DNA of 64,000 bases from Asterias amurensis. Its lineage: Eukaryota > Echinodermata > Asteroidea > Forcipulatida > Asteriidae. Below, one piece after another: positions 7,362 through 57,024 of the stretch (position 1 is its first letter; every line of letters starts with the position of its first letter). Made by a program: the position numbers and the translations under genes. The notes under the pieces are model-generated. The model was not told the DNA's origin and made no database searches. It was given only the letters and a program-made list of their open reading frames with translations. The stretch is from contig NC_092665.1 in NCBI RefSeq assembly GCF_032118995.1, positions 10,830,512-10,894,511 on the forward strand, written 5' to 3'.

Positions 7362-7369
7362 CCGTCATT

Positions 7370-19712
<12,343 letters not shown>

Positions 19713-33949: not shown

Positions 33950-34785
33950 TTACACACATTTGACTTCGCCACTGGTTTTCTGGTCTATCCAATCACAATA
34001 GTTGGATATCTTTGTGTAGACTCCAGGATGTGTGTCTTGTGCGCAACCGATGCCCCAGCTAATAATGCCTTCAAGCAACACACCATCCTGGTGGGAGTCT
34101 GGGGCAAAGTTACTGACGATTGGACCACCAGTGTCACCCTGTTCAAAGATATAAAGCCAAAATTTATGAACAGTAGCTGATTATACTGCCTGGCTGGCGT
34201 TTTCTTCTGTTAAATAATATGTGTCTTAATGCGTTTATGATAAACGCATTGAAGTAAAAGAAACTGAATTACATTCACACAAAATATAACTCGGGCGGGA
34301 AAAGAGGTCTTGAGCAAAGTAAAACAAAATGGTTTAAAAAAACAATTTGACCGAGAGCTCTGCCAATTAAGACATCCAGCCCAATGTTAGCGGTAACCTT
34401 GTTAGTCAACTTGGGTTCAACATCTTATATGGTAAACATTGTTGTAGTTCGTGGCCAGTTTATTAGCATAATAATACATGCTGCATCAATTTGACTCGAC
34501 TGGTACGCTGAACAGTTAACCTACCCGGCATGAGTCTTTACCCCCTCCTTGGACACCTGCGCAGAACATGTTATCATTGACAGAGCTACCGTAGGCTTTT
34601 TTGCAGTCTTCTGGACTGTTTGCAAATACAACCACCTCATATAGCTCTTCTGGACGCTCCCAGTAGACGGCTACAATATATATAGAAAAGTAAACATAAA
34701 TATTTGGTTTTATCAATTTTAAAGTTATTCAAAGCTGCGTGCTTATCTGGTGCACATTTCCAGCGCTATTAGCCGCGCACCAGAC

Positions 34786-34818
<33 letters not shown>

Positions 34819-36304
34819 GGTCATTTGTAGAGTGCCAAAATCAAGAGTTTGTATCAAGACCATGTATTTGTTCATATAAATGCGCAACGGGTTAGTCTGG
34901 TAGGTTTGTTGCGGTACTGCGTCTGAAAAGGGGTCACCGTGGCATAAGTCCCCAACGATTTTATTGAGATAGATTCTGCAGAGGCAAATAAACTTACGGT
35001 GAAGGCTTCCCCATCCGGTAGAAAGCAGTTTCAGACCCGTCTTTGGCTCGCTTGAAGCGATGTTGATGGCCTGAACGTCACTGCTCATAGAGGCGGGTGT
35101 GTCCAGATGAATCAAGGCGATGTCGCTTTCCATAGTACTTTTATCAAAATTGTCGTGTACAATCCAAGTTCCTTGGATGAACTGAAGCTTTGGACTGTCG
35201 TGTTGCAGAATGTTATGATAACCGAGGCCAACGTAGTCTTTTGTACCATGTCCAAGGCTAAAACAAACAAAAATATTTTGTTAACCACATCAACAACCGG
35301 TTTTGACACTTAAAGGTAGTGGACACTATTGGTAATTACTTAAAATATTCATTAGCGTAAAACTTTACTTGGTAAACGAGTAATGGGGAGAGGTTGGTAG
35401 TATAAAACATTGTGAGAAACGGCTCCCTCTGAAGTGGAGTAGTTTTCGAGAAAGAAGTAATTTTCCACGAATTTGATTTAGAGACCTCAGATTTAGAATT
35501 TGAGGTCTGCAAGGACCGGGAGTCGGAATGCTTGACATGGCAAGGTAAGCCCCCATAACAGAAGGCCGGAAGCATCGAACCCCGCCTAAAGCAGTGGACG
35601 CTCATCTCAAACAATGTTTTTTCTAGAGAATAAATGTTTAATACAGTTTTCTGATTACCATACAACTTCTCACTGTCCTCTTATTTTGTCCAGGCATTAT
35701 GGAGTGTTGGCGCAAAGGTGCTCGTTTTAATCAAAGACCACATTATACGGATGGTCTGGTGACATCCTTGCATACAGAGAATCAAATGACGTATGAATTT
35801 TTCAAGAAGTGATCGTTTATGCAGTTAAAGTAGTATATTATAGTCGGTGAGTACTTACGAGCATTGGGCAGAGGTGACAACCCAGCTTGGGTGAACCAAA
35901 GTACCCCCACATAAGTTATCTTTATTTGGGAACATTACGGCAGCCGTGTAGGGTCGGCTGTGCGGGACAGACTCATGTCCACCAATGATGAGTGAGCACA
36001 AACAGCTTGGGATCAGCACAGCTAACAAAGAAAAGAAGGGAAAAAAAAAAAAAAAAAAAATATTTGTGTACAAAATCACTTTGTTTAAAAGGAACTCGTT
36101 TCTGAATGTTAGCAAAAGCTGCATTGCTTCATACCAGTTTAGTTTCGTCATTATTTTGGGCACATGTACATTTCAAAGTTAGACCCTCCCTAGATGTCAA
36201 TATCATTGAAACACACTGTCTGCTTTTATGGCAGTCAAGCTCACGTATATTGCTAGGCCCCAAAAGGAAAGAAACTCACCGAGCGTAAGAAGAAGACCCT
36301 CCAT
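33950..36304 (-). CDS. SP2: trypsin-like pseudoprotease (Gln-Asp-Thr in place of His-Asp-Ser)
   Basis: Five exons read downward: 36304-36280, 36021-35859, 35257-34998, 34670-34525, 34138-33950; phases 1, 2, 1, 0; 260 residues. The signal peptide ([15 protein letters not shown]...) is followed by S-L-I-I-G-G. The catalytic His is Gln61 (TSAQC), Asp108 is kept (ESDIALI), and the catalytic Ser is Thr201 (GDTGGP). The pocket Asp (Asp195 in KDSC) and the S1 disulfide cysteines remain. The residue before the G-D-T-G-G motif is Arg, not Gln. No stop, frameshift or damaged splice site is visible, so this looks like a retained non-proteolytic homologue that may act as a decoy, binder or regulator (inference). 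The gene is compact, with introns of 258-601 bp. The promoter matches SP1 and SP4. Confidence 0.9.
34785..34818. repeat. (ATCA)n microsatellite in SP2 intron 3
   Basis: About eight tandem atca units followed by aaaggtcatttgtagagtgcc. On the minus strand this resembles the end of a retroposon with a (TTGA)n tail. Confidence 0.8.
35310..35520. mobile_element. truncated TTAA miniature element in SP2 intron 2
   Basis: The left half of the cagtggacac family (TTAAAGGTAGTGGACACTAT...tttagaatttgaggtc), broken off at the hairpin centre and joined to unrelated sequence. Confidence 0.8.
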
Positions 36305-36314
36305 GGTTACTCTT

Positions 36315-36383
36315 ACAAGGTGGTCGATCATTCAGTTCGGCTGAAAGTGAATAGACTGCTAACTTTCAGCTCACTTATATAGA
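36315..36383 (-). promoter_or_regulatory. SP2 core promoter and 5' UTR
   Basis: The minus strand carries the TATA box tctatataag (36383-36374), then 28 bp later the tttcagccgaactgaatgatcgaccacctt block shared with SP1 and SP4. The ATG is at 36304. Confidence 0.8.
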
Positions 36384-36572
36384 CAAGATGTATCACGTAC
36401 GATTATGATGATTTCAATTTCATCTCACACAATTAACCTTCTTTATCGTCCTTTTTTAAACGTTATCCAACATGTGGCACTTTCACAGCCACACACTCTC
36501 TTGATACGAGTGGGAATGTTGTATCTAGGATGAACAAGATTAGCAAATAGTTTTTAATCTATAAAGTTCTGA

Positions 36573-36888
36573 ATGTTTGCTGAATTTGTCTTCTTGTTCT
36601 TTTTTCTAGGAGTAACACAAAGTGCACCATGCACTGTTGTTGAACTCGATCCCTGGGTACACATGTTTAGGCTGTCATTTGTGGTTGAGATTCGTTTCGT
36701 TCTCGGTTGTTTCTACATCTCCCTGGGTTCGGGATATTTGGCCCTTTGTGGCTCCCAACGCCCTCAAATACAATAATATCATCAGCCAAGGTGAAACAGA
36801 AGGGAAATTCCAGGAGACGAACGAGGCCACGAGAAAAGCAATTCGTTACTGGGTGCGGTCTTGGCCCACTTTGGGACCCTGACAATGT
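36573..36888. repeat. duplicated block, copy 1
   Basis: 36693-36888 (cgttctcggttgtttctacatctccctgggt...gagacgaacgaggccacgagaaa) matches 49287-49470 closely, and similarity continues patchily to ~37.5 kb against ~50.4 kb. Open frames here are not conserved between the copies. Confidence 0.65.
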
Positions 36889-37004
36889 TTAAAGGCAGTG
36901 GACACTATTGGTAAAAACTCAAAATAATTATTAGCATGTGTTGAGATAGACCATCTGTGAAGGCTAGTCTTTGACAATTACCTATAGTGTCCACTGCCTT
37001 TAAT
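36889..37004. mobile_element. minimal 116-bp TTAA miniature element
   Basis: TTAAAGGCAGTGGACACTAT to ATAGTGTCCACTGCCTTTAA with almost only the terminal parts retained. A clean minimal example of the family ends with TTAA on both sides. Confidence 0.9.
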
Positions 37005-37600
37005 TTTAGATGCTGTCTGATACAGCCTATATATCTTATACCTGCTGTGACTTTGTTTCCAGGTACACGTGCCCCTGTAAATTACTTCTTTGGAGCAGTT
37101 TTGATAGAAAATGATGAAACATATTTGGCAACTACTCTCCTAACAGGCTTGATGTGATAAAGTATCACTTAAAACAATGAATCAAACTGATTAAAACTGC
37201 GAACTAAAACATTACCAGCACCGTATCTTGTTTCCACCAACGGTAACAAATTGTTATCACCTGGGAACATGGACAACAAACGCATCTGTCATCGTTTCGT
37301 TGTTCACATGTTGTAATTGATGCAATGCACTACTGTTACTGAAAGAAGGGGGGTTGTTTTATATGTGTGTCTCTTTGTATAAAATATAGGCAAATAAGAA
37401 ATGTTTCTCTTAAGAAAAATCCCAACCCTTAAAACAACACTTCAACGCAAAGAAGCAAACACAGACACAAGCAAACACTGAAATAAACCCACACTTAAAC
37501 AAACGGAATAGTGTTAGTACTTTTTAAAAACCTCATAAATAAGATATAAGAAAAAAAAGGCATCGTGGATAACAAAGTACTGTTATAATTAATAATAATG
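37005..37600. repeat. continuation of duplicated block, copy 1
   Basis: gtgactttgtttccaggtacacgtgcccct and tgatgcaatgcac...gaaagaaggg...ttgttttatat are shared with 49.82-50.4 kb in the same order. 37245-37410 also resembles 5290-5460. Confidence 0.5.
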
Positions 37601-37835
37601 GACACTTAATAAAGCGCCGGTATCCGCCGCAAGCGGCGCTCATGGCACTACTCTACAAAGGAACAACAAGCAATGAAAGTAGCAAACAACACAAAAAGAA
37701 AATCAACTTAGCAAAAAGCTTCTCTATGAAAATGAGTTTTTAAACTGTTCTTGAATGTGTTGAGTGATTTGGAGAGTTTCACGGTGTCCAGGAGGGAGTT
37801 CCAAAGCTTTGGTGCTGCGCTCTGAATTAGTACTT
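37601..37835 (-). mobile_element. LINE 3' end fragment (CR1/L2-like)
   Basis: Read on the minus strand, 37835 downward encodes APKLWNSLLDTVKLSKSLNTFKNSLKTHF and then a stop. This is the characteristic C-terminal sequence of CR1/L2-type reverse transcriptases (P-x-L-W-N-S-L-P). An ATT-rich tail follows (37590-37610). A short 5'-truncated copy. Confidence 0.75.
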
Positions 37836-39106
37836 AACAGACATCTGTGTGCAGGTAGAACCGTTTATATTATCAAACTGGCTTAACTAAAAATTGTCCT
37901 TCCTCAAATAAGTGTTCATAAGAGTAATTTATAATATATACATACCAGTTTATTTTAATGGTTATAACGAGCTGCTCATGCAGCCCAACCTACAGATTGT
38001 GGTTTGCCAATCCAGGCCGTTTTTCCGACAATACTGTTCGTTGTACCAAGGTAGCTATTTAGTTACATACACAGGAGCTATATGAATTATTATGTTTGTG
38101 TTTTTTCCATTTTGTTATCGGCATCTCGTCCGCTGTTAGTTTGTTCATAAATATACAAATATACCAATGGTTAATTTGTGGACTCTACAAAAAAGAGCGC
38201 CACCAAGAGTTTCTTTAGGAAATGTTCACTATTGTAGCGAATTGGGTGAAGTAATAGTGTGAGGTCAGTGCACACATTCTGGATAGATTAACGACCAAAA
38301 TTGGACTTTCGTTGTTTCGAATGTTATATTTAACGTTGACTAAACTTTACTACAGTTTAAGGTGGTAAATAGTTTGTTAATGTTGTCGCCGAATGCCTAT
38401 AGCAACTTACACCAACTCGATAATTGTATTTCAACCATTCAAAATTTCAAATCCTACTAAAAGCATGGCTGTTGCTGGAAGCACAGCAATCTGTCCAAAT
38501 TCGTCCTTTAAGATTCGCAGTTTTCAAAATGCATGTTTGTTGGTACACACAAATCATTGCTGCTAATGTTTGATAGTGGTTGTGGTCATATGTTTTGATA
38601 GATTATGAAAACAATAGTAGTCTGTTATCGGTGTGTGTTGACAACATGTTAGTTTTATCCAAGAACAGGTGCAAATAATACATTTTTTCCCTGAGCGATA
38701 CGAAAGATGTTTGAAGGAAAACAAGATATTGAATCAATGAAATTTGTCCCTTTTGAAAAAAAAAAACTTCGTTGGAAAGCAATTGGTTTACTTCAACCAA
38801 ACCGTTTTTTTTTTTTTTTTTTTTTTTTTCAAGAGCTCGCTGCGAGCTTCAAATTAAAGGGGTTAATTGACCTTGTTTCACTTCTAAAGTACATTAGTGA
38901 GTTGTGGTGAAAAGTGAAGTTTTAGTCTCTAGGTAGATTTTGTCCCCCAGTGATATTGTCCATCACACGGTAACATTTGATAACATTTTGTCCGTTAGTG
39001 CCCTAGCCTTAACATCTGACGTCATACCTCGAGGTTCACAGACATCGCCATGCACCGTCCTGTCCTGATGTTGGAAGGTTTGCCTTCGCTTTACATGTAC
39101 ACATGT
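37836..39106. other. no recognisable feature
   Basis: AT-rich intergenic DNA with a poly-T run (38807-38830). No gene or named repeat. Confidence 0.35.
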
Positions 39107-39473
39107 TTAAGGCAGTGGACACTATTGGTAATTGCTCAAAACATTTATTAGCAAAAAACCTTTATTGTAATGGTGAGAGGATGATAGTATAGATGATTGT
39201 GAGAAACGGCTCCATCTGAAGTAATGTAGTTTTCGAGAAAGAAGTAATTTTCAGCGAATTTGATTTCGAGACCTCAAGTTTAGAATTTGAGGTCTAGAAA
39301 TCACTCATCTAAAAGCACAGAACTACGTGTGACAAGGTTTTTTTCAATATCTCACAACTCCGACGACCGATTGAGCTCAAGTTTTCACAGGTTTGTTATA
39401 TCATGCATTTGTTGAAATACACCAACTGTGAAGACTAGTATTTGACAATTACCAATAGTGTCCAGTGTCATTA
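39107..39473. mobile_element. TTAA miniature element
   Basis: A nearly complete cagtggacac-family copy with the central hairpin (gatttcgagacctcaag / ttgaggtctagaaatc). The right terminus has decayed (gtgtccagtgtcattata). Confidence 0.8.
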
Positions 39474-39938
39474 TAAAAGTGATTCAAAAATTGTGCGCAC
39501 AATGCACGTAGACGGCCGAAAGTGAAAAATTATATTACCCATCGGCCCAACCATAACTCAAATATGGAAAACGTCAAATGTGGTTATTCAATGAAAATTT
39601 TGTGTCGAATGAAATCACTGAGCATGTAAGAATGGTGCCCGTTAGTTTCTGTAAAAAAAAAATGAAGGACCTGAATACCAGCGCCTTCGTTTAAATAAAT
39701 GATAGCCAATTTCAATTCACTAAATGGGGACCATGCATGCCGATAGACAAAATCCCCTGGACATTTGTCTTTTTGCTCGATCGTGTAGGTCGCGTGAGGC
39801 TAAAACAAACAGAAACGACTTCGATCAAGACTACAAACAATCATGATCGTACCCTGTTGTTCCTGCGAATTATACCATGTGCTCATCATCAACGGATAAG
39901 ATTAACATTATCTGACGACCTTGTTATTAATTGAAAAT
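39474..39938. other. SP3 5' flank, nothing recognised
   Basis: Upstream sequence of SP3. It lacks the gacgtcat and cttcagccgaactgaatg blocks of the other three promoters. Confidence 0.4.
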
Positions 39939-39948
39939 CTATAAAAAT
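39939..39948 (+). promoter_or_regulatory. SP3 TATA box candidate
   Basis: ctataaaaat, 72 bp before the SP3 ATG at 40020. A faint echo of the shared start block (ttcaattcagcatc) follows at 39980-39994, but the near-identity seen among SP1, SP2 and SP4 is absent. Confidence 0.6.
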
Positions 39949-40019
39949 GAAACGAATTTCTGTTACTGCTGACCGACTATTCAATTCAGCATCTCGTCTC
40001 TACCAACACTGGCAGCAAG

Positions 40020-43000
40020 ATGTATGTCTTCCTGGCTCTCTGTGAGTATGTTTCCCCAATTGGTTTTGGGTAATTGACATTTAAATGTACGTTTCGTACT
40101 ACAAGTGAGAAACAAATTAAATCTTATAGCTCGGAGACCCAAAACCAATTTGGTGATTAACTCTTTCTAAACGAAAGAAAGCAGGTTGTAATGTTTTATT
40201 TATTATAAACCTTCATGTTTTTATTTCCATCGATTACTTTTAGCGACCTTTTTATATTTTCATATATGATGTCTATACCTCATACGTATTCATGACCGAG
40301 CGTTGGGTCCTTACTGGTATATTCATCATCACGTGACAGGTGCTTTTTTTGCTATTTACCAAGTGCGCGCGCAAGAACATCGCTCTAGCGACGTACAACA
40401 TATGAACAAATGTTTATTATGGTGCATTTTATTCTGCAGCCGTGTTTCCAAATACTTTTTTTTTACTCCAAATACTTTACTTTTTACTGTTAACCCGTTA
40501 CTCGGGTTAACAGTAAATGTGAGCTCCCCTCGGTATTGACAATTTAATTCCTTCGGCTTCGTAATAAAGTTTGTCAACATCCAATACCTCGATGAGATAA
40601 TTTCGACTATTTACCATCAAACTTTGTATTACCTCGGTAACAAACTGTGAAGTTTGATTGGTCGAGAACCAATCACGTGCCGTGCAACAAATGTGCATGT
40701 ACCATGGCTGAGTGATGTTCCCCGGTGTACATTACCTTGATCGTTCCCGCCGTAGGTCGATTTCCAGTGCTTAGTGCAAAACAACAGCAGGTTCGAGGGA
40801 ATAGGGAAAACAAATTTAAACTCTATAAAAGTTTGAGAATGGCACAAACTTTGAGAAGAGGAATAATAATAGTACCAATGTATAACAAAACAGTTGTTGC
40901 ACGCTGTGGCTGGGGTCCGTGGGTTGTGTACACCCTCGCGGGAAAATTGCACCCTCGGCTTCGCCTCGGGTGCTATTTTGCAAAACGGGCTTACAAAACG
41001 CCATGGACCCCGTCTTAGCGTGCAACAATATTTGTATAATGTTAAAGTCACTTGGATGTGGTATTTTGTCGAAATAAAGCTTTTGTCACTCAAATATGTA
41101 TTTTGATGAGTGGAATATGAATAAACAAGTAACTAGGGTTTAAAAAGGTAGTTTCCATGTTATTAACAAATTTGACAAAAAGGCCCGACCCGAGAGGGCG
41201 CTGTTCGTGACGTCAATCGAGGCGCGATGAATCGCATGCAGTGCCAACACAACATAGTGACGCTTGGCGCAAGCTAAAAACCAGGGGGAGGAAGGGGTAT
41301 TGCGCAATCATTTGCTAGCGCGTTTTGGGTACACTTCATTTTAAAATTGGTGATGACAATATTAAACTGGAAAAGTAAACATGAATACCGCTGAAATGCT
41401 ATCTTTAACAGCACTGGAAACATAACAGTACTTATTGTAAGAGCATTTTCAATTGTTAAACTGGTTAGTTTTACATAAAATGCTTAATCATTTTACCGAA
41501 ATTTTTCGTTGGCTTATTGCAGCGGCCACAACGTGTATGAATGGGTCCGGGCGGGAGTTTTGTTACAAAACGTCACCCCTAAAATGGCTATAAAGATCGA
41601 CATAATGTGAAAAAAATTATCGTTCATCCTCTGATTTGTTTTACTAAATGTTATGATGAGGGTTAGATCTTTCATTCCTGAAAGTTTAAACAAAATCCCT
41701 CCGTACATCCTCTGGATATTTGACGTTTTTTGAGAGGTATTTTTGAGAAAATGGTTTCTGCCTATACTTGGTTTCCACGCAAACGATCGTCTGTTGACGA
41801 ACGGGAACATTCGCCGCAGGTAATGTTAATTCTGAGGCAAGCGCACATCTAAAACGTAGGTGGCGGGTTCGTGGCGCCACCCCTTCCGCCCCCCCCCCCC
41901 CTGCTAAAAACATGCCCTCACAGTTGAAACAATACCTGTTTTTTCACGTTAGGTTCGTTGCGTCTTTCAGGTACCTTCTTTGACTTCTTCCCCACTAGCT
42001 GGGAATATTGGAATGGCGTCATGTTTTAGAAAAAAAAAATATCTTCATGTCAAAATGTGTAGTACTGTGTATTTCGGATTCTCGAAGCACGACGGCTCGA
42101 AGTGTTTGCTGCACAGCGCTGGAACAGACGTCGGACCGGACAACTTTGCAAACTGACCCCATCATTAGTTGTTTTGCTGCACATAACAAGCAGCAATACA
42201 CCTGGTTGACATTGCCAGAAAAATGCAAGAAAACAACATTTTCAAAACGTACAAACTAACGACTAGGACTTGAATGGACTTGCACGTACGTGTGTTCGAT
42301 GTTCGATCGAGGCAAAGTCTGCCTCGATTGACGTCACACAAGGGGAAGGCGGAGTCACCCCACAACTTTTTTAAAATGTTAAACATATAAATCGTTAAAA
42401 AGTTCTCCACCAGAAAAGTTCAAAAGTAAATAATTATTAAATGTTGGTACATACTGTCTAACTTGACATTGGCTTCTTTCAGCTGTACTGATCCAAAGCT
42501 GTTTGGGTTCCCTCATCGTGGGTGGACATGAGTCTGTCGCACACAGCCGACCCTACCAGGTAGCCATCATGGACGAGTACAAAGGTCAATTCTGTGGGGG
42601 TACCTTAATCCACGCAAAATGGGTTGTTAGCGCTGCGCATTGTTCGTAAGTAGTAACAATGATGATAATTATGATGAAATAATACACGTTATAACAATAA
42701 CAATATTGATATGTTATACAAAACAGTAGTTTCGAATCAGACGTAGAAACGATCAAAAAGTACTATGACCCAAACATGTGTTCCGATTAAATCATGCGAT
42801 TATCGGATTTTTGAAAAGCGCTTGTAACCGTTTTTAATAAAATGCATATGGGTAGAAAGATGTTGTAAAAGTAGAATATAATGATCCACACAAACACGCC
42901 TCGAAATTTCACGGTTTTCCATTTACCTCGTCATCTACCACGGTCGGTCATTTATGGCTCCCATAAATGGCCGACCCTGTTAGTTCGCAAAGTAAAAGGA

Positions 43001-46000: not shown

Positions 46001-47323
46001 TAACATGTTCTGTGCTAACGTCGATGGTGGAGGGAAAGATGCTTGCCAGGTAAGCCCACGTCAGTGTTATCATGGTTTTAACAATTTAATGGCCGACCGG
46101 TACAGCAGCCAGTAAACCGAAAACAAATTTAGTTACATTGGAGCACGGTTGATTTTCTCTCCTAAGACAGGCCCGACCGAATATATGGACACACTTTTTA
46201 TTTATCCTTTTTGTAAAACAAAAGTTTAACGGCAGTGGACACTATTTGTAATTATACTCAAAATAATTATTGCCATAAAACCTTACTTTGTAACGAGTAA
46301 TGGGGAGAGGTTGGTGGTATAAAACATTGTGAGAAACAGCTCCCTCTGAAGTGACCTATAGTTTTTGGAGAGAGGAGTAATTTTCCACGAATTTGATTTC
46401 GAGACCTCAAGTTAAGAACTTGAGGTCTCGAAATCAACCATCTAAACGCACACAACTTCGTGTGACAAGGGTGTTTTTTCTTCCATAGTTATCTTGCAAC
46501 TCCGACGACCGATCGAGCTTAAATTTTCACAGGTTTGTTATATCATGCATATGTTGTGATACACCAAGTGAGAAGACTGATCTTTGACAATTACCAATAG
46601 TGTACACTGTCTTTAATAGCTAAACAAAAACCAATGTAGGTAAAATGTTTTTCCACGGTCTATTCTATGTATTGCCAATGAAAGCCGTGCATGGATGGAA
46701 CAGCGGATTATTTATGCGGTGTCTTACCATCCCCAGGGCAAATCAATGGGTGCGTTCGTTTAACTTCCCTGGGTCAACCCCGGTGTGTGGCGTTTTTTTT
46801 TTGTATTTCCTGGACGAACGTGGTTAATCATCTGCACACGTTTGTTCTGGAAAAAAACACGCCACAGACCAGGGTCGACCCAGGGGAGCTAAACGAACGC
46901 ACCCAATGACAAATCAAGTGTGTAACATTGCCGGTTGAAACTGGTTTTGCTCAAAGTGTCATAATTTATGTCATTAAACTTTTTTTTACTGATACTAACA
47001 CTTAATGATGGAGCTTTTGACTCCACTGGTCTGGTAATCAGACTCGAGACAATATTTTTAAATTTGCATTGGTTTAAATCTTATCAAACTCACCGTAAAG
47101 GTGCTCATCCGCTCCTTTTACAAATTGTAAACAGGGTGACAGTGGTGGTCCGATTGTCAGCAACTTCGCTCCGAGCTCACACCAGGACGGTGTGTTGCTA
47201 AACGGCATCGTCAGCTTCGGTTTCGGCTGTGCAACAGCAACACATCCCGGAGTCTACACGAAGATTTCCAACTACTGTCCATGGATTAAAGAACACACTT
47301 ACGATGAAGTAAGCTGTGTTTAG
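40020..47323 (+). CDS. SP3: secreted trypsin-like serine protease, intact catalytic triad
   Basis: Five exons: 40020-40041, 42483-42645, 43923-44191, 45907-46049, 47135-47323; phases 1, 2, 1, 0; 261 residues. The first exon (MYVFLAL) differs from the M-x-G-L-L-L start of the others; its assignment rests on a good donor (ctctgtgagt), the right phase and an upstream TATA box. From exon 2 on it matches SP1: S-L-I-V-G-G, His60 (AAHC), Asp110 (DNDIALI), Ser202 (GDSGGP) and pocket Asp196, so Lys/Arg specificity is expected. The aromatic residue after the Ser-214 equivalent is Phe (SFGFGC) rather than Trp, which may alter the substrate cleft. The C-terminal cysteine pair is present (NYC...VSCV). Introns 1-4 are packed with mobile elements. 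The nearest AATAAA downstream is ~860 bp away (48184). Confidence 0.9.
40276..40700. repeat. dispersed repeat in SP3 intron 1
   Basis: The left part (cctcatacgtattcatgacc...tcatcatcacgtgacaggtg) matches 19285-19350. The interior has inverted short blocks (ttaacccgttactcgggttaa; gaagtttgattggtcgagaaccaatc). Boundaries uncertain. Confidence 0.5.
40892..41030. mobile_element. foldback element in SP3 intron 1
   Basis: gttgttgcacgctgtggctggggtccgtggg pairs with ccatggaccccgtcttagcgtgcaac, and caccctcggcttcgcctcgggtg forms a tight central hairpin. Confidence 0.7.
41042..42410 (-). mobile_element. Kolobok-like TTAA element with THAP remnant, copy B
   Basis: The left end TTAAAGTCACTTGGATGTGG and the following gcccgacccgagagggcgctgttcgtgacgtcaat match copies A and C. 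The THAP start survives on the minus strand only as MSTRCIAAC before a frame break, near 42165-42210. The right terminal repeat is not found, so the end is approximate. It fills much of SP3 intron 1. Confidence 0.65.
42816..43108. repeat. large near-perfect palindrome in SP3 intron 2
   Basis: Arms of ~145 bp (gcgcttgtaaccgtttttaataaaatgcatatggg ... ccatatgcattttattagaaacggttacaaacgcc) meet at ggtcatttatggctcccataaatggccgacc with almost no loop. The right flank reaches a TTAA end at 43143-43146 (aaggcaacgtgatcctttaa), so it is probably a TTAA element. Related pieces are at 57668, 60115-60270 and 62590-62824. Confidence 0.8.
43454..43831. mobile_element. TTAA miniature element in SP3 intron 2
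   Basis: A diverged cagtggacac-family copy: TTAAAAGGAAAGGTACACGTTTGG at the left, attaccagtagtgtacacttcctttaa at the right, without the central hairpin sequence. Confidence 0.75.
44331..45080. mobile_element. CCGGTGTGGCGG element, copy 3, nested
   Basis: The diverged ends (ccgatgtggcggtctcggag / ctgaggccgccacagcgg) and shared interior blocks (caaatacggtagtattacgta, gtagctgtcatggcggc) identify it. It is ~250 bp longer than copies 1 and 2, of which ~200 bp is a further insertion at 44466-44669. Confidence 0.75.
44466..44669. mobile_element. palindromic insert within the nested element
   Basis: Arms tagacttgtgtacaagtcgtttaaggtcc...gtgagatagtcgagttgcagcg and cgctgcaactcgactatctcaccg...ggaccataaacgacttgtccacaagtcta. 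The flanks tctcgaag and tctcgtag may be the target duplication. Absent from copies 1 and 2. Confidence 0.75.
45140..45295. mobile_element. palindromic GGGTGCGTTCG element in SP3 intron 3
   Basis: A ~156-bp near-palindrome: tgggtgcgtttgattagcttccccgggtcgaccccggtgtgtggc ... gccacacaccggggtcgacccagggaagctaaacgaacgcaccca. Inserted into element R copy 3 (flanks catag / tagatacgc). Confidence 0.85.
46226..46616. mobile_element. TTAA miniature element in SP3 intron 4
   Basis: Complete: TTAACGGCAGTGGACACTAT to AATAGTGTACACTGTCTTTAA with the central hairpin gagacctcaagttaagaacttgaggtctc. Confidence 0.88.
46747..46905. mobile_element. palindromic GGGTGCGTTCG element in SP3 intron 4
   Basis: Same family and layout as 45140-45295, with arms of ~65-70 bp and a short AT-rich centre. 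Single-strand folding would give a nearly full-length hairpin. Confidence 0.85.
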
Positions 47324-47370
47324 AGCTTTTGGAGAAAGTCAACTGCTACTTAATGTTGCAATTTATCAAC

Positions 47371-47755
47371 TTAAAGACACTGGACACTACTGGTAATTAT
47401 CAAAGACTAGTCTTCTCACTTGGTGTATCTCAACATATGCATACAATAACAAACCTGTGAAAATTTTAGCTCGATTGGTCGTCGGAGTTGAGAGATAACT
47501 ATGAACAAAAAATTCACCCTTGTCACACGAGGTTGTGTGCCCTCAGATTCTTGATTTCGAGACCTCGAGATTTGTGAGGTCTCGAAATCAAAATCGTGGA
47601 AAATTACTTCTTTCTCGAAAACTATACGTCACTTAAGAGGGAGCCGTTTCTCACGATGTGTTCTACTACCAAACTCTCCCCATTACTCGTTAACAAGTAA
47701 GATTTTATGCTGATAAACATTTTGAGTCATTACCAATAGTTTCTAGTGCTTTTAA
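47371..47755. mobile_element. TTAA miniature element just past SP3
   Basis: TTAAAGACACTGGACACTAC to accaatagtttctagtgcttttaa, inverse orientation of the internal blocks, with the hairpin centre gagacctcgagatttgtgaggtctc. It begins 48 bp after the SP3 stop and could fall within the 3' UTR. Confidence 0.85.
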
Positions 47756-48890
47756 GTGACTCATTGATTTACCGTAAACTAAGCAGTTAGTCTATGTTCG
47801 ATTGTAAACCTGACGAATCAACTTACCCGTTTTGATGCGTTTCAATAGCCGATAAAACTTATATAATCATGTTATTCATGAGTCTTTATAAAAAATATTT
47901 TAAAAAGCCGAACATTCCAAAATGCTGTTATATGTTTGTATGACACTTTTATTTGTTTGAATCCTACAACAACGAAACACTTCACTTTCAAAAAACTGAA
48001 AAATACACAATACATTTCTGATAAATACACAGGAGCTGTTTCCATACTTGAGTACTTGTTTTCGTAAAGGCAATATTAAGCCGACGGAACATCACCGAGT
48101 TCGGTATTTTCACAATTCATTAGACGTGTTAACTGGAACCGAAAATGAAGAATTACGTTTTTCCTGAATAATAAGAATGCATTAATAAACTAAATACTTA
48201 ATGAAGATGAAAATGATTGACCTGTTTGTTTGTTTTTTGTTCGATTTTGTATTGTTTAGACCTGCTCTAACTTCATTGAAAATCGGAGATGCAAATTATT
48301 TCAAGAGAACCCGATACCCGCCCAATACCCTGACCCACTAACTGGTGAAAGTCAATTTACAAAGCGTTTGCTCTTACCGATTGCCAATTGGTTTCCAATT
48401 TGTCCAATTTGTCATCCTCAACAGAATTACTCCCGTTTTGTTTTTTTAAGGATTCCCATTATTGAATCGATTTAAAAAAAAATAACCATTGAAAAGCACA
48501 GTGGCAATTCTAATATGCAGGAAAGAAATCGCTTCCGGCTACAACATGATTGCAGATTTAAATTTTCTTTACAATTTTTTTTTTTTTTTGATAACTGATA
48601 AAAAATTTAGTAGTTGCAAGTGACGACAACTACCTAAAGATTCGACTTACGTCAAATTTCTTCAACGTGATGAAAGTCAGGCTGCCAAACTGTTTTACAG
48701 TTCGATAAAAATGACCAAAATATCCCGTTACTCCATCAGACGCAAGGCTCTCTTAGTCCATCAGCATTGTCTACAAAGGTCTCCACAGTATCACTCCTAC
48801 ATATCTCACCAGTCTGAGTCCTTCTGTCTGGTTTTATAACCTGCCCTTTTCCCATCGTTCCTTTTGCACGAGTTTGTTTTCAGATGATAC
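47756..48890. other. SP3 3' flank, no named feature
   Basis: AT-rich. AATAAA at 48184 is the nearest polyadenylation signal downstream of SP3. No gene seen. Confidence 0.4.
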
Positions 48891-49116
48891 TTAAAGGCAG
48901 TGGACACTATTGGTAATTACTCAAAATAATGATTAGCAAAAAACCTTACTTGGTGTCGAGTAATGGGGAGAGGTTGATGGTATAAAACATTGTGAGAAAC
49001 GGCTCCCTCTGAAGTGACGTAGTTTTCAAGAAAGACGCAATTTTCTGCAAATTTTATTTCGATACACCAAGTGAGAAGACTGGTCTTTGACAATAACTAG
49101 TGTTCACTGTCTTTAA
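48891..49116. mobile_element. TTAA miniature element, shortened
   Basis: TTAAAGGCAGTGGACACTAT to actagtgttcactgtctttaa; the hairpin centre is deleted. Confidence 0.85.
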
Positions 49117-50560
49117 ACATGTCCTTCAGTAATTGTAAAGCTAACAAAGCCCGGTCCAAACTTCCTGCGAATGCGAAGCAAATGTTGACGTAACATGGTT
49201 GTTTTTGAGCGAATGCTTCGCACAAGGTGAACGCAGCTCAACCCTAACGATTTATTCGTTGCGAAATGTGAAATCATCATTCGTTTTCTTCGTTCTCGGT
49301 TGTTTCTACATCTCCCTGGGTACGGGATATATTTGGCCCTTTGTGGCTCTAACAACCTCAAATACAACCATATCATTCAGCCAGGGTGAAACAGAAGGGG
49401 ACAATCCAGGAGACGAACGAGGCCACGAGAAACGCAAATCGATACTAATTTCGGTCTGGGCCCACTCCGGGAAATAAAGATGCCGTCTGGTGCAACCTAT
49501 AATACTCCATCTGCGGCGTTTTTACACATTATGCTTAACCCAGTATATATGAGTTTGCCTTTTTTTGCATTTAAATGTTTTTGTTGCTGTTGTAATGACA
49601 TGGGGGATTTTGTTTGTCTTACATGTTGCGATTATTTCTATAGCCAGTTGACGCATGCCTTTTTAACGAGACAATTGAGACAATTGAGGCCTTCTGGTGG
49701 CCTGTCATTCTGGTGCAGCGTTGGACATTTTAAATCATTTTTTTACACCGTTTATTTTTCTCCTTTTCCGGGTGAAAATAAGGGGGACTGTGAACTCTAT
49801 CTCTACGTCATGTATTTGTTGTGACTTTGTTTCCGGGATGCACGTGCCCCTAGAGTCCCCATCCCCGGGGGCTATTTATTTTTATTTTACTTTCCCAAAC
49901 GACATTGCAATGATTTGGTAAAAGAGCAGGCTAATTTCATTATGACGTAATCTGACGGAAAGAGCCAATCACAGCGTCAGGGGAAAACAATAGTGCAATG
50001 TCGTTTGGGGAAAAAAATCAAGGCCGGGCCCAATGTCACTGCGCTGCTTAACGGTAAGCAAATTTGCGTGCTTACTGTAGCAGACAAATGTGCTTAAGCC
50101 GTAGCGTATTTCACAGGTTAGCAAAAACATTGGACTGCCTTATAGTGTTTTTACCGTGGATTTGCATTGTAACGTAATTTATTTTTGTTTACTGTACGTG
50201 ATGCAATGTACACATTATTGAAAGAAGGGTGTTTGTTTTATACCTGGTCTCTATTTGTTGAAAATATAAGCCACTAAGAGTGTTTTTTTTTTAATCATTC
50301 TTTTTAGAAATCCAAACCCTAAAAAACACACTTTATCGAAAAGAAACAAGAAATAAACAAGCAAACAATAAAACACACACGAACAAACAAACGAAATTTG
50401 CTACTTTTTTAAAACAGCACAAAATATGATAATTTGAAGAAAAAAAAATGCATCCGGGATAACAAATACTGTTTATAACTTACCGTACGTAACAAGCATC
50501 ATTGTACGGGTATAACCGCTGATACTATTAAAATGACTTACTAAAAACTGATCCAACGCC
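49117..50560. repeat. duplicated block, copy 2
   Basis: 49287-49470 matches 36693-36880 closely, 49820-49860 and 50205-50360 match 37.05 and 37.32-37.45 kb in the same order. This is a diverged segmental duplication or a long repeat ~12.6 kb from its partner. It ends close to the relic protease exon at 50.6 kb. Confidence 0.6.
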
Positions 50561-50612
50561 ATCCCCCCCACCCCCTAGAAAAAAACAAAAACAAAAAGGC
50601 GACCTGGTCATG

Positions 50613-50683
50613 AAGCTAAATCGACCCTGTATAGTTGTGTGTGGGTACCCAATTAATTGGTTCGTCAGCGCTGCGCATTGCTC
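50613..50683 (+). pseudogene. relic of protease exon 2 (fifth copy)
   Basis: tgtgtgtgggtaccc...ttggttcgtcagcgctgcgcattgctc followed by gtgagt aligns with the end of SP3 exon 2 (tgtgggggtacc...tgggttgttagcgctgcgcattgttc, gtaagt). It encodes WFVSAAHC with the catalytic His retained and a working donor. Upstream, tcgaccct may be the R-P-Y part, joined by an internal deletion. No other exon was found nearby. Confidence 0.7.
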
Positions 50684-50814
50684 GTGAGTACTTGAACGAC
50701 CTTTTTTCCTAAATAACCTTCGGATTACATTTTAAGGAGATGTATTGACGTTACTCCAGCACCTTACAACCATTATTAGAGTGCTGTTGACGGTTGGAAA
50801 ACATTGACCTTATC

Positions 50815-51141
50815 TTAAAGGTAGTGGACACTATTCTTAATTACTCAACATAATTTGTCGCACAAAACCTTGCTTGTTAACAAGTAATGGGGAGAGGTTG
50901 ATAGTATAAAACATTATAAGAAACTGCTCCCTTTGTAGTGACGTAATTTTCTACCAATTTGATTTCGAGACCTCAGATTAAGAATTTTAGGTCTCGCAAT
51001 CAAGTATCTGAAAGCGCACAACTCCGTGTGACAAGGGTGTATTTTCTTTCATTATTATCTCCCAACTTTGATGACCGATTGAGCGAGATTGAGTGAGAAG
51101 ACTCGTCTTTGACAATTACCAATAGTGTTCACTGTCTTTAA
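50815..51141. mobile_element. TTAA miniature element sharing a TTAA with copy C
   Basis: TTAAAGGTAGTGGACACTAT to ccaatagtgttcactgtctttaa. Its right TTAA (51138-51141) is also the left TTAA of the adjoining Kolobok-like element, so one inserted at the other's edge. Confidence 0.85.
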
Positions 51142-52524
51142 AGTCACCTGGAAGTGGTATTTTGTCAAAATAAAGCTGTTGTCACTACAATGTGTGTTTT
51201 GATGAGTGGGATATGAACAAACGGTTAACTTTAGGTTTTTAAGAAATAGTTTCAATTTTTGTTACAAGTTTGAAATTAGGCCCGACCCGTAAGGGCGCTG
51301 TTCGTGACGTCAATCGAGGCTCGATATTTGAAGAGAAAATGTGTAGTCTGGCCCCGTACACTACGTCTGGTTACCTGATCGGTATAGTGCCTACGTTCAG
51401 AACTACGGTCACGAGCAGACTGCACGCATTGTATGGCTGCTGTGCGGACGGTCCACTCAGATTACCCATCACGGTGAATCACATGCACATCAACACAATA
51501 TAGTGACGCTTGGCGCAAGCTAAAAACATGCCCTCAAAGTTGAAACAAGACTGCACGCATTGTATGGATGCTGTGCGGACGGTCCACTCGGATTACCCAT
51601 CACGGTGAATCACATGCACATCAACACAATATAGTGACGCTTGGCGCAAGCTAAAAACATGCCCTCAAAGTTGAAACAAGACTGCACGCATTGTATGGCT
51701 GCTGTGCGGACGGTCCACTCGGATTACCCATCACGGTGAATCGCATGCACATCAACACAATATAGTGACGCTTGGTGCAAGCTAAAAGCATACCCTCAAA
51801 GTTGAAACAATGCCCGAATTTGTTCACGTTTGGCAAATGCTCCTTTAGGTTCGTCACGTCTTTCAGGTATAACACAATATAGTGACGTTTGGCGCAAGCT
51901 AAAAACATGCCCTCAAAGTTGAAACAAGACTGCACGCACTGTATGGCTGCTGTGCGGACGGTCCACTCGGATTACCCATCACGGTGAATCGCATGCACAT
52001 CAACACAATATAGTGACGCTTGGCGCAAGCTAAAAGCATACCTTCAAAGTTGAAACAATGCCCGAATTTGTTCACGTTTGGCAAATGCTCCTTTAGGTTC
52101 GTCACGTCTTTCAGGTACCTTCTTCGACTCCTCACTGGCTGGAAAAATTGTTGGGATGGCGTCATGTTTTAGAAAAGAACTTTTCCTTTCATGTCGAAAT
52201 GTGTGTTGTATTCCAGATTCTCGAATCAAGATGGCCCGAAGTAGTTGCTGTACAGCGCTGGAAAAGACGTCGGAGCGAATTGCAAACTGACCTCATCTTT
52301 AGTTGTTTTGCTGCATCCAGCAGCATTATAGACGTGGTCGTACAACTCACGACTAGGACTTGCACGTACGTGTGTTCGATGTTCGATCGAGGCAATTCGA
52401 CGTCACAAAAGGGGTAGGCGGGTCACCCCCAAAACAACTTTATACATTTCTTAAACATATAAACCGTTACAAACATATACTCTAATGTTTGAAGAAAAAG
52501 AATTCTATTTCCAGGTGACTTTAA
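51138..52524 (-). mobile_element. Kolobok-like TTAA element with THAP remnant, copy C
   Basis: Both ends are intact: TTAAAGTCACCTGGAAGTGG and atttccaggtgactttaa, with TTAA on both sides. The minus strand retains the region after the zinc finger (52160-52060, LKHDAIPTIFPASEESKK), but the THAP start itself is deleted. It is enlarged to ~1.39 kb by an internal tandem array. The best-delimited copy of the family. Confidence 0.75.
51418..52050. repeat. 131-bp tandem array inside copy C
   Basis: gactgcacgcattgtatgg recurs at 51418, 51549, 51680 and 51928 (spacing 131, 131, 248 bp). Each unit includes cggacggtccactcggattaccc and atagtgacgcttggcgcaagctaaaa. Units are highly similar, suggesting recent amplification. 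Copy B has one such tail fragment near 41240. Confidence 0.9.
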
Positions 52525-54065
52525 GCTTTTGTAACTTCAGGCCGATTTCTTAGGTTGTTTAGGTTGACATGTAGTTCTGCATGTGAGAAACTACCGCACG
52601 CTTTTTTTATGAGAATGTTAATTTGGAGACTGGTCTCAGAATTCTTGAGCAACAGGCGGCTTTGTCTTTTAAGGGGATTGTACCACAACATTTACTTCAC
52701 TTTACCAGTGGGCGGGCCATGACAGGGTTTTAAACACCTGCCTGAACGAAAATTTTAAGTCGTGAACTTTGCTGAGTTTCACTGAAAATGTTTCCAATGA
52801 ATTAGGGAATCGAGTCAGATGGTTATAAATAGATTTCGAATGCCCTTATCCAGCGCTTTTTGGGGAGATTTGCGAAAAGCCCCTTTACGTATTAACTCTC
52901 AAAACGTCATAGTTGGGAGCTCCAATTTGTAAAGCCGCTTTGTTGCAGCGTGGATGTATAAAAAAGCAAATTCCAAGACATGACGTCAGCGGCATTGTCC
53001 TCTGACTCGCGCCGTCATTGGCAGAAGTGTTTTTAGGTTTTCAAAACCTTTAAGTTGGGGCCGGTGTTTTTAATCGATAATTACGAACAATTCAGAAGTG
53101 TACACATATCCAAATTAAATTAAAGTGGTGAACAAGTGCATTATAGACATGTTAAAATACCATTATCCGTTAAAAACATTCCGCTCAGGTAGCTGTTTGA
53201 GATGTACCTCCTTTTAACAGGCTGGTGTCTGGCGTTGTTTACAGTACTATCGGCAATAAGGAAGGGACTTGATAATTAGGCCAATGAAAACTGTGATGTA
53301 AAGTCCCCACATTGTATATTATTTCTCGGATAGCTAAAGGGGCATCCATCAATAGTTATCAAGGCTTTGCCCACCGATACCAACAATTCGTCCTTAATTA
53401 TTGTCACACAGAACCGTCTAACTTACACCACAACAATACAAAACACTTCTAAAACGAGCAAGTATAAAAGTCCATACGCCGTAACACAACAATAAAGTCC
53501 ATCGCACACTTTGGCTGGTTTATTGGTCAAAAAAGCATATCAGCAAAATTAAAGAATTGCACAAAATGGACAATAATTATACTCGACTTCTGGTTGGCTA
53601 TAATTCACTAACAGGACGCTACGTGTGGCAGCATACACGGTTATCGTTGTAGTTTTTGTTGGTTATTTGTTTTGTTAATTTGCTTGGTTGTTTCTTACAT
53701 AAGATATTCCATTTTCTGGTTGCAGAACATCCATATCTTTGTAATTTATTTCCATGTATCCATGATAACTGTTGTCTATTGTACAACAACACAAAACAAG
53801 CTACACTGTCAAATACAACGTCTCATGTCAGTATTGAACTTGTTTCGATAGGGCTTGACACGTTCGTGTGAAAGTACTTACAGTAATAATGTTTAAAATA
53901 ACCAGAAACTCATCAAAGTGACTTTGCATGCAAGTTAAAAGTCACATCCTGTCCGTGTCAACTTGAGACAAACGTGCACAATTGCGAGCCTCGTGGAACA
54001 TGGAGTGTGGGAGGTTTTAAAGCGTACAACTTAAGTTAACCTGCAATCCCTCGTTTAAATTATTC
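52525..54065. other. no recognisable feature
   Basis: Intergenic DNA between copy C and the 3' end of SP4. Short open frames only. Confidence 0.35.
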
Positions 54066-54071
54066 TTTATT
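54066..54071 (-). terminator. SP4 polyadenylation signal
   Basis: AATAAA on the minus strand 23 bp past the SP4 stop codon, the same spacing as in SP2. Confidence 0.6.
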
Positions 54072-54093
54072 AGACATCTCAATCAATTACGTT

Positions 54094-56921
54094 TTACGCA
54101 CATTTGACTTCGCCATTGGTTTTCTTACTTATCCAGGTGCAATAGTTGGATATCTTCGTGTAGACTCCAGGATGCTTATCTTCTGCGCAGCCCATACCCC
54201 AGCTTACTATACCGTCAAGCAGAACACCTGCCTGATGGGAGTCGGCGGCGAAGTTACTGACGATTGGTCCACCAGTGTCACCCTGTTTAAAGATACAATT
54301 CAAATTAATGAAACTAAATCTAGTGCTCGACTTGCTTTTACTTCCCCTTTTAAGAGTCTCACTGTGTTTCTGACTATAAATCTCAAACAATAAAGCACAC
54401 AAAAAGAACCCAATTAAAAAAAAAAGGGTCATCAGCAAAAAAAAATGTGATCGACATAATACGTGCACAGCTGAATAGCAACATATGCTGTATCAATTGG
54501 CCTCCACTGGTATCTTTTATTTGTGGATTTACCTGGCAAGCGTCTCCTCCTGCAGCACTAGCGCAGAACATACCATTAGGAAGGAGACCATAAGCATCCT
54601 CACACTCCTGATGACTTTTGGAGTAAAGAACAACCTCGTGCAGTTCATTTGCAGGAATCCAGGTGCTTGCTACAATATTCAAACAAGATAAAAAGGAAGA
54701 AAACCTAGTTATCAATCCGCCGTATCTTTGACCGTGTGCTGGCGCTCTTTTAAGAAAAATTTTTGTCTTCTGGGGGTATGCGCGATTACCATATGTATAG
54801 ATTACAATATCGGCGTTCTCCCATTTCTGAGGGCGGTATAGTTTTAAGTTGTTTCTGAGGTGGATTTTTCGGTGACGGATGTGATTTCTGGTGGTAACGC
54901 ATTCCAGTCTCATTTATTTTGTATTTTGCATTTTGCATCCATTGGGTACAAAATCTACAACCGCATCAATACTGTTACATGACATCTAAGCTCATCCTCC
55001 CAGTAAGAAACATTTAAACGCATACGGGAAAAAGCACGACTCTAAACCCTGGGCAAACCGCCGTCTAGTGGCAGTACAGTTAAACAACCGGTCATACAAT
55101 CCAGATACAATTCACAGTGAGCAATAGTGCCTACAAAATGGTCTCCGCAAACAGAAAACCTGGGCCGGGTAGCTATTGTTTGTCATAAATATAAATAAAA
55201 TAAAACTTCAGTGAGAATGTTTTGCGGGAGTAAATAAACTTACGATCAAGGTTTCCCCAGCCGCTAACCAGCAGTTCCAATCCCTTATTGGGCTCGCTGG
55301 AAGCGATGCCGATAGCTTGAACGTCGCTGTTCACAGAGGCGGGTGTGTCAAGATGAATCAAGGCGATGTCGTTATCGAGTGAGCTAAAATCAAATTGTTC
55401 GTGTACCGTCCAAGTACCTTGGATAAACTGCTGGTTCGGACCGTCGTGTTGTTGAAGGCTATGATATCCGAGACCAACGAAGTCTCTTTCACCATCTTCA
55501 ATGCTAAGAGCAAATAATAGTTATAATAATAAACACAAAAAGAGAAATGTACATGTTTGACACATTGCACCAACGTCAAATCTGGGCTACTTATTTTGGT
55601 GGTACATTTGCCCAAGAAAAGTTTATGGATCGCCCAGAAAACACTTGATTTGCCCTTGCATTAAATACATTGGACATGTTTGATAATTGTCAAAGACCAG
55701 TATTCTGCTTTGGTGTAACTCAACATCTGTGATAGTTGATTACCCTATGGGACAATTTATTTTAAGTAAACGCCTTGAGAGTAGTATAATGATCGGTGAG
55801 TATACTTACGCGCATTGTGCAGAGGAGACTACCCAGTTCGGGTGAATTAAAGTACCTCCACAGAATTGATCTTTATCCGAGTACATAATGGCTACCGTGT
55901 AAGGTCGGCTGTGTGGGACAGACTCATGTCCACCCACAATGAGGGAACTCAGACAGCTTGGCATCAGCACCGCTGTAGAGAAATTAATAGCAAATTAAAT
56001 AGCTATGCTAACATAGAAAACAGTGTTGCAGTTAAAATACCACAGTTTTGAATAGCCGTTTATACAACACATTTTAATAAACGAAGGGACAGTTTCGTGC
56101 ACTGCTCTTTTGTCGAAATCATTAACGGATCCTAAATCTACCTGGCAAGTAGATACACCAAGCCAGCGCCCAAGTCGGAGCCTAAGCCATAGAAGTAGTA
56201 AAACTTGTGTCTGCAGAATAACCTTTCCTAAAGACACTAATAGTTTTAAAAACGAAGTCTCCGACTTCCCGTGTGCTTCGAAAACCATAATGCTAAAATA
56301 ACGCAAGCGAAATGGATGAGATAATTGTATTAATCTAAAATTTAGTCCATGTTAGCTCTTTTTTAACCAAATCACCTTTGTGTATATAGGTCTGTGATTA
56401 GTTTGATAAATGTTTCCCTTGGTTAATTGCACTGATTGCAGTGTACCACTCTGAGTTGCTAACAGAAAGAGGCCAGTGAAATATAGAGCTATGACTTCAA
56501 CCAAACAGTTCGTTATGTCTGACACCATCACTTCCCCGTAAGCGACCGGCTACTTGCAGAAAAGTGCGTGGATACGTTTGGCGAAAATATGCCACCAGGT
56601 CTTAAACTTTTAGAATATTTAACACTTTCAAATGGAGGATTTTTATAGAGATGATAAACGTACACCAGGCTGATAATTGGCTTTTGATAGCTTCTCCTGA
56701 GATATTGCTGAAAATATGTACCTGTTATTGTTCACGCAAGAAAAATAAACTACAGTTCACATTTTACATAATAATAATGAGAAACGTTTCATACACTTAA
56801 AGTTCTTTAGAATGATCTAATAAATCATTTGAAAACACCAGCTGCTTTATAATCAAGCTCATGTAGATTGCTAGGCCCCCAAATTAAAGAACCCACCGAG
56901 CACAAGAAGAAGTCCGTTCAT
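54094..56921 (-). CDS. SP4: trypsin-like pseudoprotease (Gln-Asp-Thr in place of His-Asp-Ser)
   Basis: Five exons read downward: 56921-56897, 55972-55810, 55503-55244, 54669-54533, 54282-54094; phases 1, 2, 1, 0; 257 residues. The signal peptide [15 protein letters not shown]... is followed by S-L-I-V-G-G. Gln61 replaces the catalytic His (SSAQC), Asp108 is kept (DNDIALI), Thr198 replaces the catalytic Ser (GDTGGP). The pocket Asp is Asp192. Exon 4 is two codons shorter than in SP1, in the loop just before this Asp (AAGGDACQ). The C-terminal cysteine pair is present (NYC...VKCA). No disabling lesion is seen. Both substitutions are shared with SP2, so they probably arose before the SP2-SP4 duplication. 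The donor of exon 1 is gtgggt, slightly weaker than in the others. A regulatory or binding role is inferred, not shown. Confidence 0.9.
55661..55745. mobile_element. TTAA miniature element fragment in SP4 intron 2
   Basis: acattggacatgtttgataattgtcaaagaccagtattctgctttggtgtaactcaacat resembles one end of the cagtggacac family; truncated. Confidence 0.55.
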
Positions 56922-56929
56922 GATGGCGG

Positions 56930-57024
56930 TTGCAAGGTGGTCGATCATTCAGTTCGGCTGAAGTGAAGAGACTGCAAACCGTCGCTCGCTTATATAGACT
57001 AGATGTTCATCGCCTAATGACGTC
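56930..57024 (-). promoter_or_regulatory. SP4 core promoter and 5' UTR
   Basis: On the minus strand: gacgtcat (57024-57017), tctatataag (56998-56989), gacggtttgcagtctcttcac, then cttcagccgaactgaatgatcgaccaccttgcaa. The block from gacgtcat to the ATG is almost identical to SP1, including the gaacatctagtctatataag lead. Confidence 0.85.

Follow-up and report, generated by a model that had tools for sequence, protein, structure and literature searches.

A cluster of trypsin-like genes in the starfish Asterias amurensis combines two copies that have the catalytic triad His57-Asp102-Ser195 with two intact copies, SP2 and SP4, in which the triad reads Gln57-Asp102-Thr195. The cluster lies in a window of 64,000 nucleotides, the whole stretch of DNA analysed here (contig NC_092665.1, positions 10,830,512 to 10,894,511). 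Judged from sequence, SP2 and SP4 are best read as secreted pseudo-trypsins, that is, as S1A serine peptidase homologues, and we give a probability of about 0.6 to at least SP2 being a maintained non-proteolytic binder. The changed triad can be read directly in the motifs VTSAQC, SDIAL and DSCRGDTGGP of SP2 and VSSAQC, NDIAL and DACQGDTGGP of SP4; SP1 and SP3 have AAHC and GDSGGP, giving His-Asp-Ser. In all four genes, the S1-site residues 189, 216 and 226 are Asp, Gly and Gly (D/G/G), and Gly193-Asp194 of the GDSGGP motif is kept. SP2 and SP4 thus lack the His57-Asp102-Ser195 of an active trypsin and possess its Asp189, Gly216 and Gly226; with an S1A domain and at least one triad substitution, they are serine peptidase homologues in the sense of PMC11172050.

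The four genes were located by tblastn with four exon queries against the window, and the models were assembled from the exon matches and their flanking splice sites. They alternate in orientation, SP1(+), SP2(-), SP3(+) and SP4(-), and each has five exons, with AG preceding and GT following every internal exon and an uninterrupted spliced frame from ATG to stop. The translated products of SP2 and SP3 are identical to the A. amurensis database proteins P0004 and P0009; P0004 was probably derived from the assembly that also supplied the window and thus gives no independent check of SP2. The first-pass annotation, made from the letters alone, had described two intact Gln-Asp-Thr genes with an unchanged Lys/Arg pocket and Gly193, interleaved with His-Asp-Ser paralogues, and all of this is borne out by the features below.

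7343-19712, plus strand: SP1 gene, 270 amino acids, His-Asp-Ser
7343-7394, 9416-9578, 17485-17750, 18935-19077, 19524-19712, plus strand: SP1 exons
36331-33950, minus strand: SP2 gene, 269 amino acids, Gln-Asp-Thr
36374..36381, minus strand: SP2 TATATAAG, about 50 bases 5' of the ATG, a sequence match only
36280..36331, minus strand: SP2 exon 0, start codon and signal-like peptide (17 residues), donor GTGAGTTT, homologous to exon 0 of SP1 and SP4
35859..36021, minus strand: SP2 exon 1, end of the signal-like peptide, IIGG N-terminus, Gln57 (TSAQC)
34998..35257, minus strand: SP2 exon 2, Asp102
34525..34670, minus strand: SP2 exon 3, Asp189 (GKDSCR)
33950..34138, minus strand: SP2 exon 4, Gly193-Asp194-Thr195 (GDTGGP), Gly216, Gly226, stop codon
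40020-47323, plus strand: SP3 gene, 261 amino acids, His-Asp-Ser, equal to P0009
40020-40041, 42483-42645, 43923-44191, 45907-46049, 47135-47323, plus strand: SP3 exons
56948-54094, minus strand: SP4 gene, 266 amino acids, Gln-Asp-Thr
56989..56996, minus strand: SP4 TATATAAG, a sequence match only
56897..56948, minus strand: SP4 exon 0, start codon and signal-like peptide (17 residues), donor GTGGGT
55810..55972, minus strand: SP4 exon 1, IVGG N-terminus, Gln57 (SSAQC)
55244..55503, minus strand: SP4 exon 2, Asp102
54533..54669, minus strand: SP4 exon 3, Asp189 (GGDACQ), two residues shorter than SP1 before Asp189
54094..54282, minus strand: SP4 exon 4, Thr195 (GDTGGP; Thr195 also in P0019), stop codon

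The surroundings of the start codon are common to SP1, SP2 and SP4, including TATATAAG, matched by sequence about 50 bases upstream. The ATG of SP4 at 56948 is homologous to those of SP1 and SP2, whereas 56921, the right end given in the first-pass annotation, is the second in-frame ATG of exon 0; the first donor reads GTGGGT in SP4 against GTGAGT in the three other genes. The two-residue shortfall of SP4 before Asp189 matches eight Acanthaster and Patiria rows of the alignment. SP3, despite its His-Asp-Ser triad, has Phe before Gly216 (SFG, exon 4 at 47135-47323) where SP1, SP2 and SP4 have Trp (SWG). Two smaller pieces lie between the genes: a decayed trypsin exon-4 piece with an in-frame stop (26687-26752, minus strand; found with the SP3 exon as query) and a nine-residue WFVSAAHCS match to the end of exon 1 (50658-50684, plus strand; E = 0.02), probably a relic or a chance hit.

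By domain content and predicted fold, the protein encoded by SP2 is a trypsin. Pfam Trypsin (PF00089) matches residues 29-258 of P0004 with 181 bits over profile positions 1-220 of 220; outside this S1 domain there is no other Pfam domain, a borderline DUF1986 match lying within it. The Pfam scan found no clip domain, and the chain begins with IIGG directly after the signal-like peptide; SP4 has the same layout with IVGG. The predicted structure of SP2 has the trypsin fold (predicted local distance difference test score, pLDDT, 89.6), and its best Foldseek match is 1an1_E (template modelling score, TM, 0.96 by target; root-mean-square deviation 1.3). Nearly all of the 50 matches listed are trypsins, many of them solved with protein inhibitors, and among them is S195A trypsinogen in complex with bovine pancreatic trypsin inhibitor (BPTI; 3tgj), so that an inhibitor can still be bound after the nucleophile is lost. 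With the general base lost, SP2 and SP4 would not turn over peptides at trypsin-like rates, and they would still be expected to bind Lys/Arg side chains and canonical trypsin inhibitors. Since pocket and frame are kept and the base is gone, the most direct expectation is that ligands are bound and not turned over; the decoy role discussed below is what we infer beyond it.

The first-pass annotation had proposed the ratio of nonsynonymous to synonymous rates (dN/dS, or omega) as a means of telling maintained genes from decaying ones, and the outcome differs between the two: neutrality is rejected for SP2, and SP4 is undecided. The pairwise values of dN and dS by the NG86 method are 0.21/0.64 for SP2-SP4, 0.18/0.45 for SP1-SP4, 0.21/0.65 for SP1-SP2 and 0.23/1.64 for SP1-SP3. 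In a branch codon model (our own implementation, GY94 type with F3x4 frequencies, on 256 gap-free codons of the four window genes), SP2 has an omega of 0.34, with omega = 1 rejected at p = 2.8e-5, and the two genes jointly have 0.37 (p = 1.5e-8). The catalytic loss may fall anywhere on the tested branches, and part of the constraint may thus predate it. Neutral simulations started from the SP1 frame, with 1000 runs per divergence, remained free of stops in no run at 0.42 (SP2, by a three-point silent estimate), in 5 at 0.22 (the whole SP4 branch) and in 29 at 0.11. With its frame intact and neutrality rejected, SP2 does not have the marks of a decaying pseudogene. For SP4, a comparison is possible with P0019 and P0029, genomic fragments covering some exons only: in exons 3-4, P0019 departs from SP4 at 3 of 108 codons, compared with 17 of 151 in non-coding DNA (hand-chosen gap-free stretches read as codons; p = 0.016), and Thr195 is kept.

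A number of results weigh against maintained binding, most of them concerning SP4. Its omega is 0.49 (p = 0.06 against 1), and constraint on the pair may be relaxed relative to the rest of the tree (0.37 to 0.25, p = 0.08; 0.41 vs 0.20, p = 0.002, when the branch leading to SP2 and SP4 is included). Exon 2 differs from P0029 at 8 of 86 codons, no better conserved than non-coding DNA, and exons 2-4 pooled differ at 11 of 194 against 21 of 203 (p = 0.10). At a divergence of 0.05, the scale separating SP4 from P0019, 217 of the 1000 neutral simulations were stop-free, and among the best 120 of 1809 matches there is no full-length one more than 70 percent identical to SP4. From outside starfish, Asp189 is found in none of the ten homologues in the mealworm feeding-stage table of PMC11172050, and the gut parallel is thus not one of pocket type; furthermore, the solved scabies mite paralogues have the residues of the oxyanion hole and of the pocket shifted out of place (PMC13194640), so that a pocket may look intact and still fail to bind.

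Two rival readings stand out, a slow Thr peptidase and, in the case of SP4, early gene decay. The former would have SP2 and SP4 work as slow or altered peptidases, with the hydroxyl of Thr195 as nucleophile and water or Gln57 partly replacing the base. Loss of the base costs trypsin orders of magnitude, and this counts against it; in its favour, Gly193-Asp194 and the S1 residues are kept, and recombinant SerPH122 (H-D-T) of Tenebrio molitor is reported in PMC11172050, which cites its reference 33, to cleave chymotrypsin and trypsin substrates at a low but measurable level. SerPH122, however, retains His57, whereas SP2 and SP4 are changed at both residues, and we consider this rival improbable. 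The latter, extended to both genes, would make them recent dead duplicates heading to decay, above all SP4. The undecided omega of SP4, its lack of a close full-length match, its poorly conserved exon 2 and its changed first donor would all fit, as would the presence in the window of the decayed exon-4 piece; against this stand the full frames and GT/AG sites, the rejection of neutrality for SP2, the conservation of exons 3-4 and of Thr195 in P0019, and the mere 5 of 1000 simulations that stayed stop-free over the whole SP4 branch, and we attach a similarly low probability to it. That SP2 and SP4 are regulatory cofactors or immune ligands (cf. clip-domain homologues, haptoglobin and HGF) rather than binders in the digestive lumen appears very unlikely: S1 pseudoproteases have been described as ligands, cofactors, decoys and scaffolds (PMC13194640), and several insect clip-A homologues combine D/G/G in the S1 site with the triad H-D-G (PMC11172050), so that a kept trypsin pocket is no pointer to the gut, but SP2 has no Pfam domain beyond S1, SP4 has the same exon structure, the nearest relatives are simple trypsins and the start-codon surroundings are common to SP1, SP2 and SP4.

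Returning to maintained binders, the most likely role of SP2 and SP4 would be binding in the same lumen as the triad-bearing SP1 and SP3; they might, for example, soak up trypsin inhibitors of prey or own origin. That the ligand is an inhibitor, and the role thus that of a decoy, is a tentative suggestion which we regard as possible, if doubtful. Less likely still is the full scenario of an inhibitor-sponge set in A. amurensis, in which exons 1 and 4 would have reached Q-D-T by selection or exon-wise conversion, with the Arg/Lys pocket left intact, and spare the active paralogues from inhibitors. If the genes are maintained binders, they are starfish pseudoenzymes with a trypsin pocket whose close His-Asp-Ser paralogues in the same cluster could serve as matched controls, and the idea of gut pseudoproteases as inhibitor decoys would be directly testable in starfish.

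Sequencing error at both codons had been named as something that would undo the case. GDTGGP is found also in P0019, a relative of SP4 on a short European Nucleotide Archive (ENA) contig, and AQC, together with GDSGGP, in P0005, another A. amurensis protein; the changed codons are thus not an error common to SP2 and SP4. The part that does not carry over is Gln57 of SP4: exon 1 is covered by neither P0019 nor P0029, no candidate came from a search with that exon of SP4 by itself, and the residue is seen in the window only.

In a protein tree of 20 rows, with the two triad columns removed and the long-branched P0011 left out, SP4 falls outside a group of SP2, P0003 (H-D-S) and P0005 (Q-D-S) with a support of 91/92, not starred. 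Joining SP2 and SP4 costs 10.6 log units and is not rejected by the approximately unbiased (AU) test (p-AU 0.12); a clade of SP2, SP4 and P0005 is borderline (p-AU 0.055). A sister pair arising by simple descent is thus neither shown nor rejected by this tree. Of the first-pass statement that Q-D-T was kept in two paralogues, the presence of the triad in both stands, and simple inheritance is not supported. The codon model of the four window genes prefers SP2 and SP4 against SP1 and SP3 by 11 to 15 log units; the two analyses do not contradict each other, as P0003 and P0005 are without DNA and absent from the codon model.

The informative sites among the four genes number 57, and 22 of them group SP2 with SP4. 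The first two codon positions account for 17 of these 22, compared with 12 of the 35 sites that favour one of the two alternative groupings (p = 0.0025). Broken down by exon, the sites joining SP2 with SP4 are distributed over exon 0 (0 of 1), exon 1 (7 of 8), exon 2 (9 of 22), exon 3 (1 of 12) and exon 4 (5 of 14). The agreement is concentrated at replacement changes and around the catalytic His, and the disagreement in exon 3 and at most third positions. Going by these patterns, the shared changes could stem from selection in a common ancestor, from parallel change or from gene conversion acting exon by exon. Six residues are exclusive to SP2 and SP4 among 13 Asterias rows (positions 30, 39, 55, 97, 195 and 222, by hand count on a trypsin alignment; Q57 is also in P0005). 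This is not far above other pairs: five for SP2-P0003 and P0005-P0003, three for SP2-P0005, two for SP4-P0003 and SP4-SP1, and none for four more pairs. Arithmetic on the mealworm frequencies of PMC11172050 gives about 1 in 7 for two independent losses both arriving at Q and T, and a chance agreement would thus be not very unlikely. Exon 2 has a likely trace of conversion: P0029 reads EPKTGSK where SP4 has EPNKGLE, a run that contributes to the exon-2 difference, and EPKTG occurs also in SP2, P0003 and P0005, which makes gene conversion within the cluster likely. For the branch that separates SP1+SP3 from SP2+SP4, omega runs to its bound (p = 0.044 vs omega = 1; p = 0.056 without the two triad codons; p = 0.001 vs the omega of SP2 and SP4), but with the tree unsure and gene conversion breaking the model, positive selection there is only hinted at.

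Two full-length homologue searches, taking the best 120 of 1809 and the best 120 of 626 proteins, gave 208 different sequences; these are best matches to SP2 and SP4, clustered at 90 percent, and not a census. His-Asp-Ser is found in 199 of the 208 aligned. The nine without it are P0004 (Q-D-T), P0005 (Q-D-S), Acanthaster planci P0016 and P0021 (H-D-D) and P0018 (H-D-E), A. rubens P0025 (N-D-E), the hamster prediction P0121 (H-M-S) and the fragments P0019 and P0029. Among the 25 starfish matches listed (P0001-P0018, P0020-P0025 and P0027, with P0010 and P0011 short), six have a changed triad, in five different forms, and all six keep Asp189, the three Acanthaster proteins keeping His57 as well. 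P0016, P0018, P0021, P0005 and P0025 are thus like SP2 and SP4 in combining a changed triad with Asp189 and differ from them in which triad they have. The five forms suggest, at the level of sequence, that loss of the triad is a recurrent fate of the trypsin family in starfish. P0005, beside SP2 in the tree, has lost His and kept Ser and is a possible intermediate.

A separate observation concerns the N-terminus, encoded by exon 1 (9416-9578, 35859-36021, 42483-42645 and 55810-55972 in SP1-SP4). The comparison covers 26 starfish rows, namely the four window genes and 22 matches; P0011 is left out, as are P0004 and P0009, which are duplicates. The residue immediately preceding IVGG/IIGG is neither Lys nor Arg in 24 of these rows and is Leu in 21. 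In each of the 12 Asterias rows of the clade, Gly, Cys, Ser or Ala is followed by Ser-Leu and then by IVGG/IIGG, a pattern kept in SP2 and SP4. The usual signal-peptidase rule would leave a two-residue propeptide, as in granzymes. Lacking a basic residue at this site, the proteins would probably be activated either through loss of a dipeptide or through a cut following Leu and not by tryptic cleavage; cleavage after Leu is listed for some mealworm peptidases (PMC11172050).

The kind of gene described here is already known, and the Q-D-T triad has precedent. HGF has Gln at the His57 position, and S1 receptor ligands have, unlike SP2, further domains besides S1. Such receptor-ligand pseudoproteases have, as is predicted for SP2 and SP4, an S1 domain without catalysis, and they bind their partner via the former active-site region (PMC13194640). 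Among open-licence papers, judged partly by title and the start of the abstract, we found none on echinoderm or starfish serine peptidase homologues, nothing on Asterias trypsin clusters and, by title, no starfish trypsin paper.

The triad changes, which the first-pass annotation took to be unusual, are common in the mealworm. According to PMC11172050, T. molitor has 269 S1A sequences, of which 125 are non-catalytic homologues. Where His57 is replaced, Gln is the most frequent substitute (55 of 125), and at 195 there are Gly in 26, Thr, the second commonest replacement of Ser, in 21, and Ser in 24. The closest likeness is among its single-domain larval-gut homologues, many paralogues standing beside active enzymes: SerPH136 is Q-D-T, with 490 reads per kilobase per million (RPKM) in the larval gut, and SerPH384 and SerPH562 (Q-D-S) and SerPH122 and SerPH245 (H-D-T) each have half of the SP2/SP4 triad. 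The S1 residues of SerPH136, in contrast, are G/L/S, and it is a protein of a beetle, not an echinoderm, compared here by tables. In Tribolium castaneum, dietary inhibitors are said to raise the transcripts of ten homologue genes more than fivefold (PMC11172050). Nor are active and inactive paralogues side by side new: in scabies mites a single active digestive protease is accompanied by 16 inactivated paralogues, and in the mutant proteins of the dog mite the substrate-binding sites are mostly kept (PMC4930577). Given the mealworm and mite cases, the earlier term "undescribed system" is too strong. Compared by description, the scabies mite SMIPP-S resemble the starfish cluster in being one family with active and inactive members; they differ in being parasite proteins, some of which inhibit host complement, and in having the pocket displaced in those that have been solved (PMC13194640), where SP2 and SP4 have the residues of an intact trypsin pocket.

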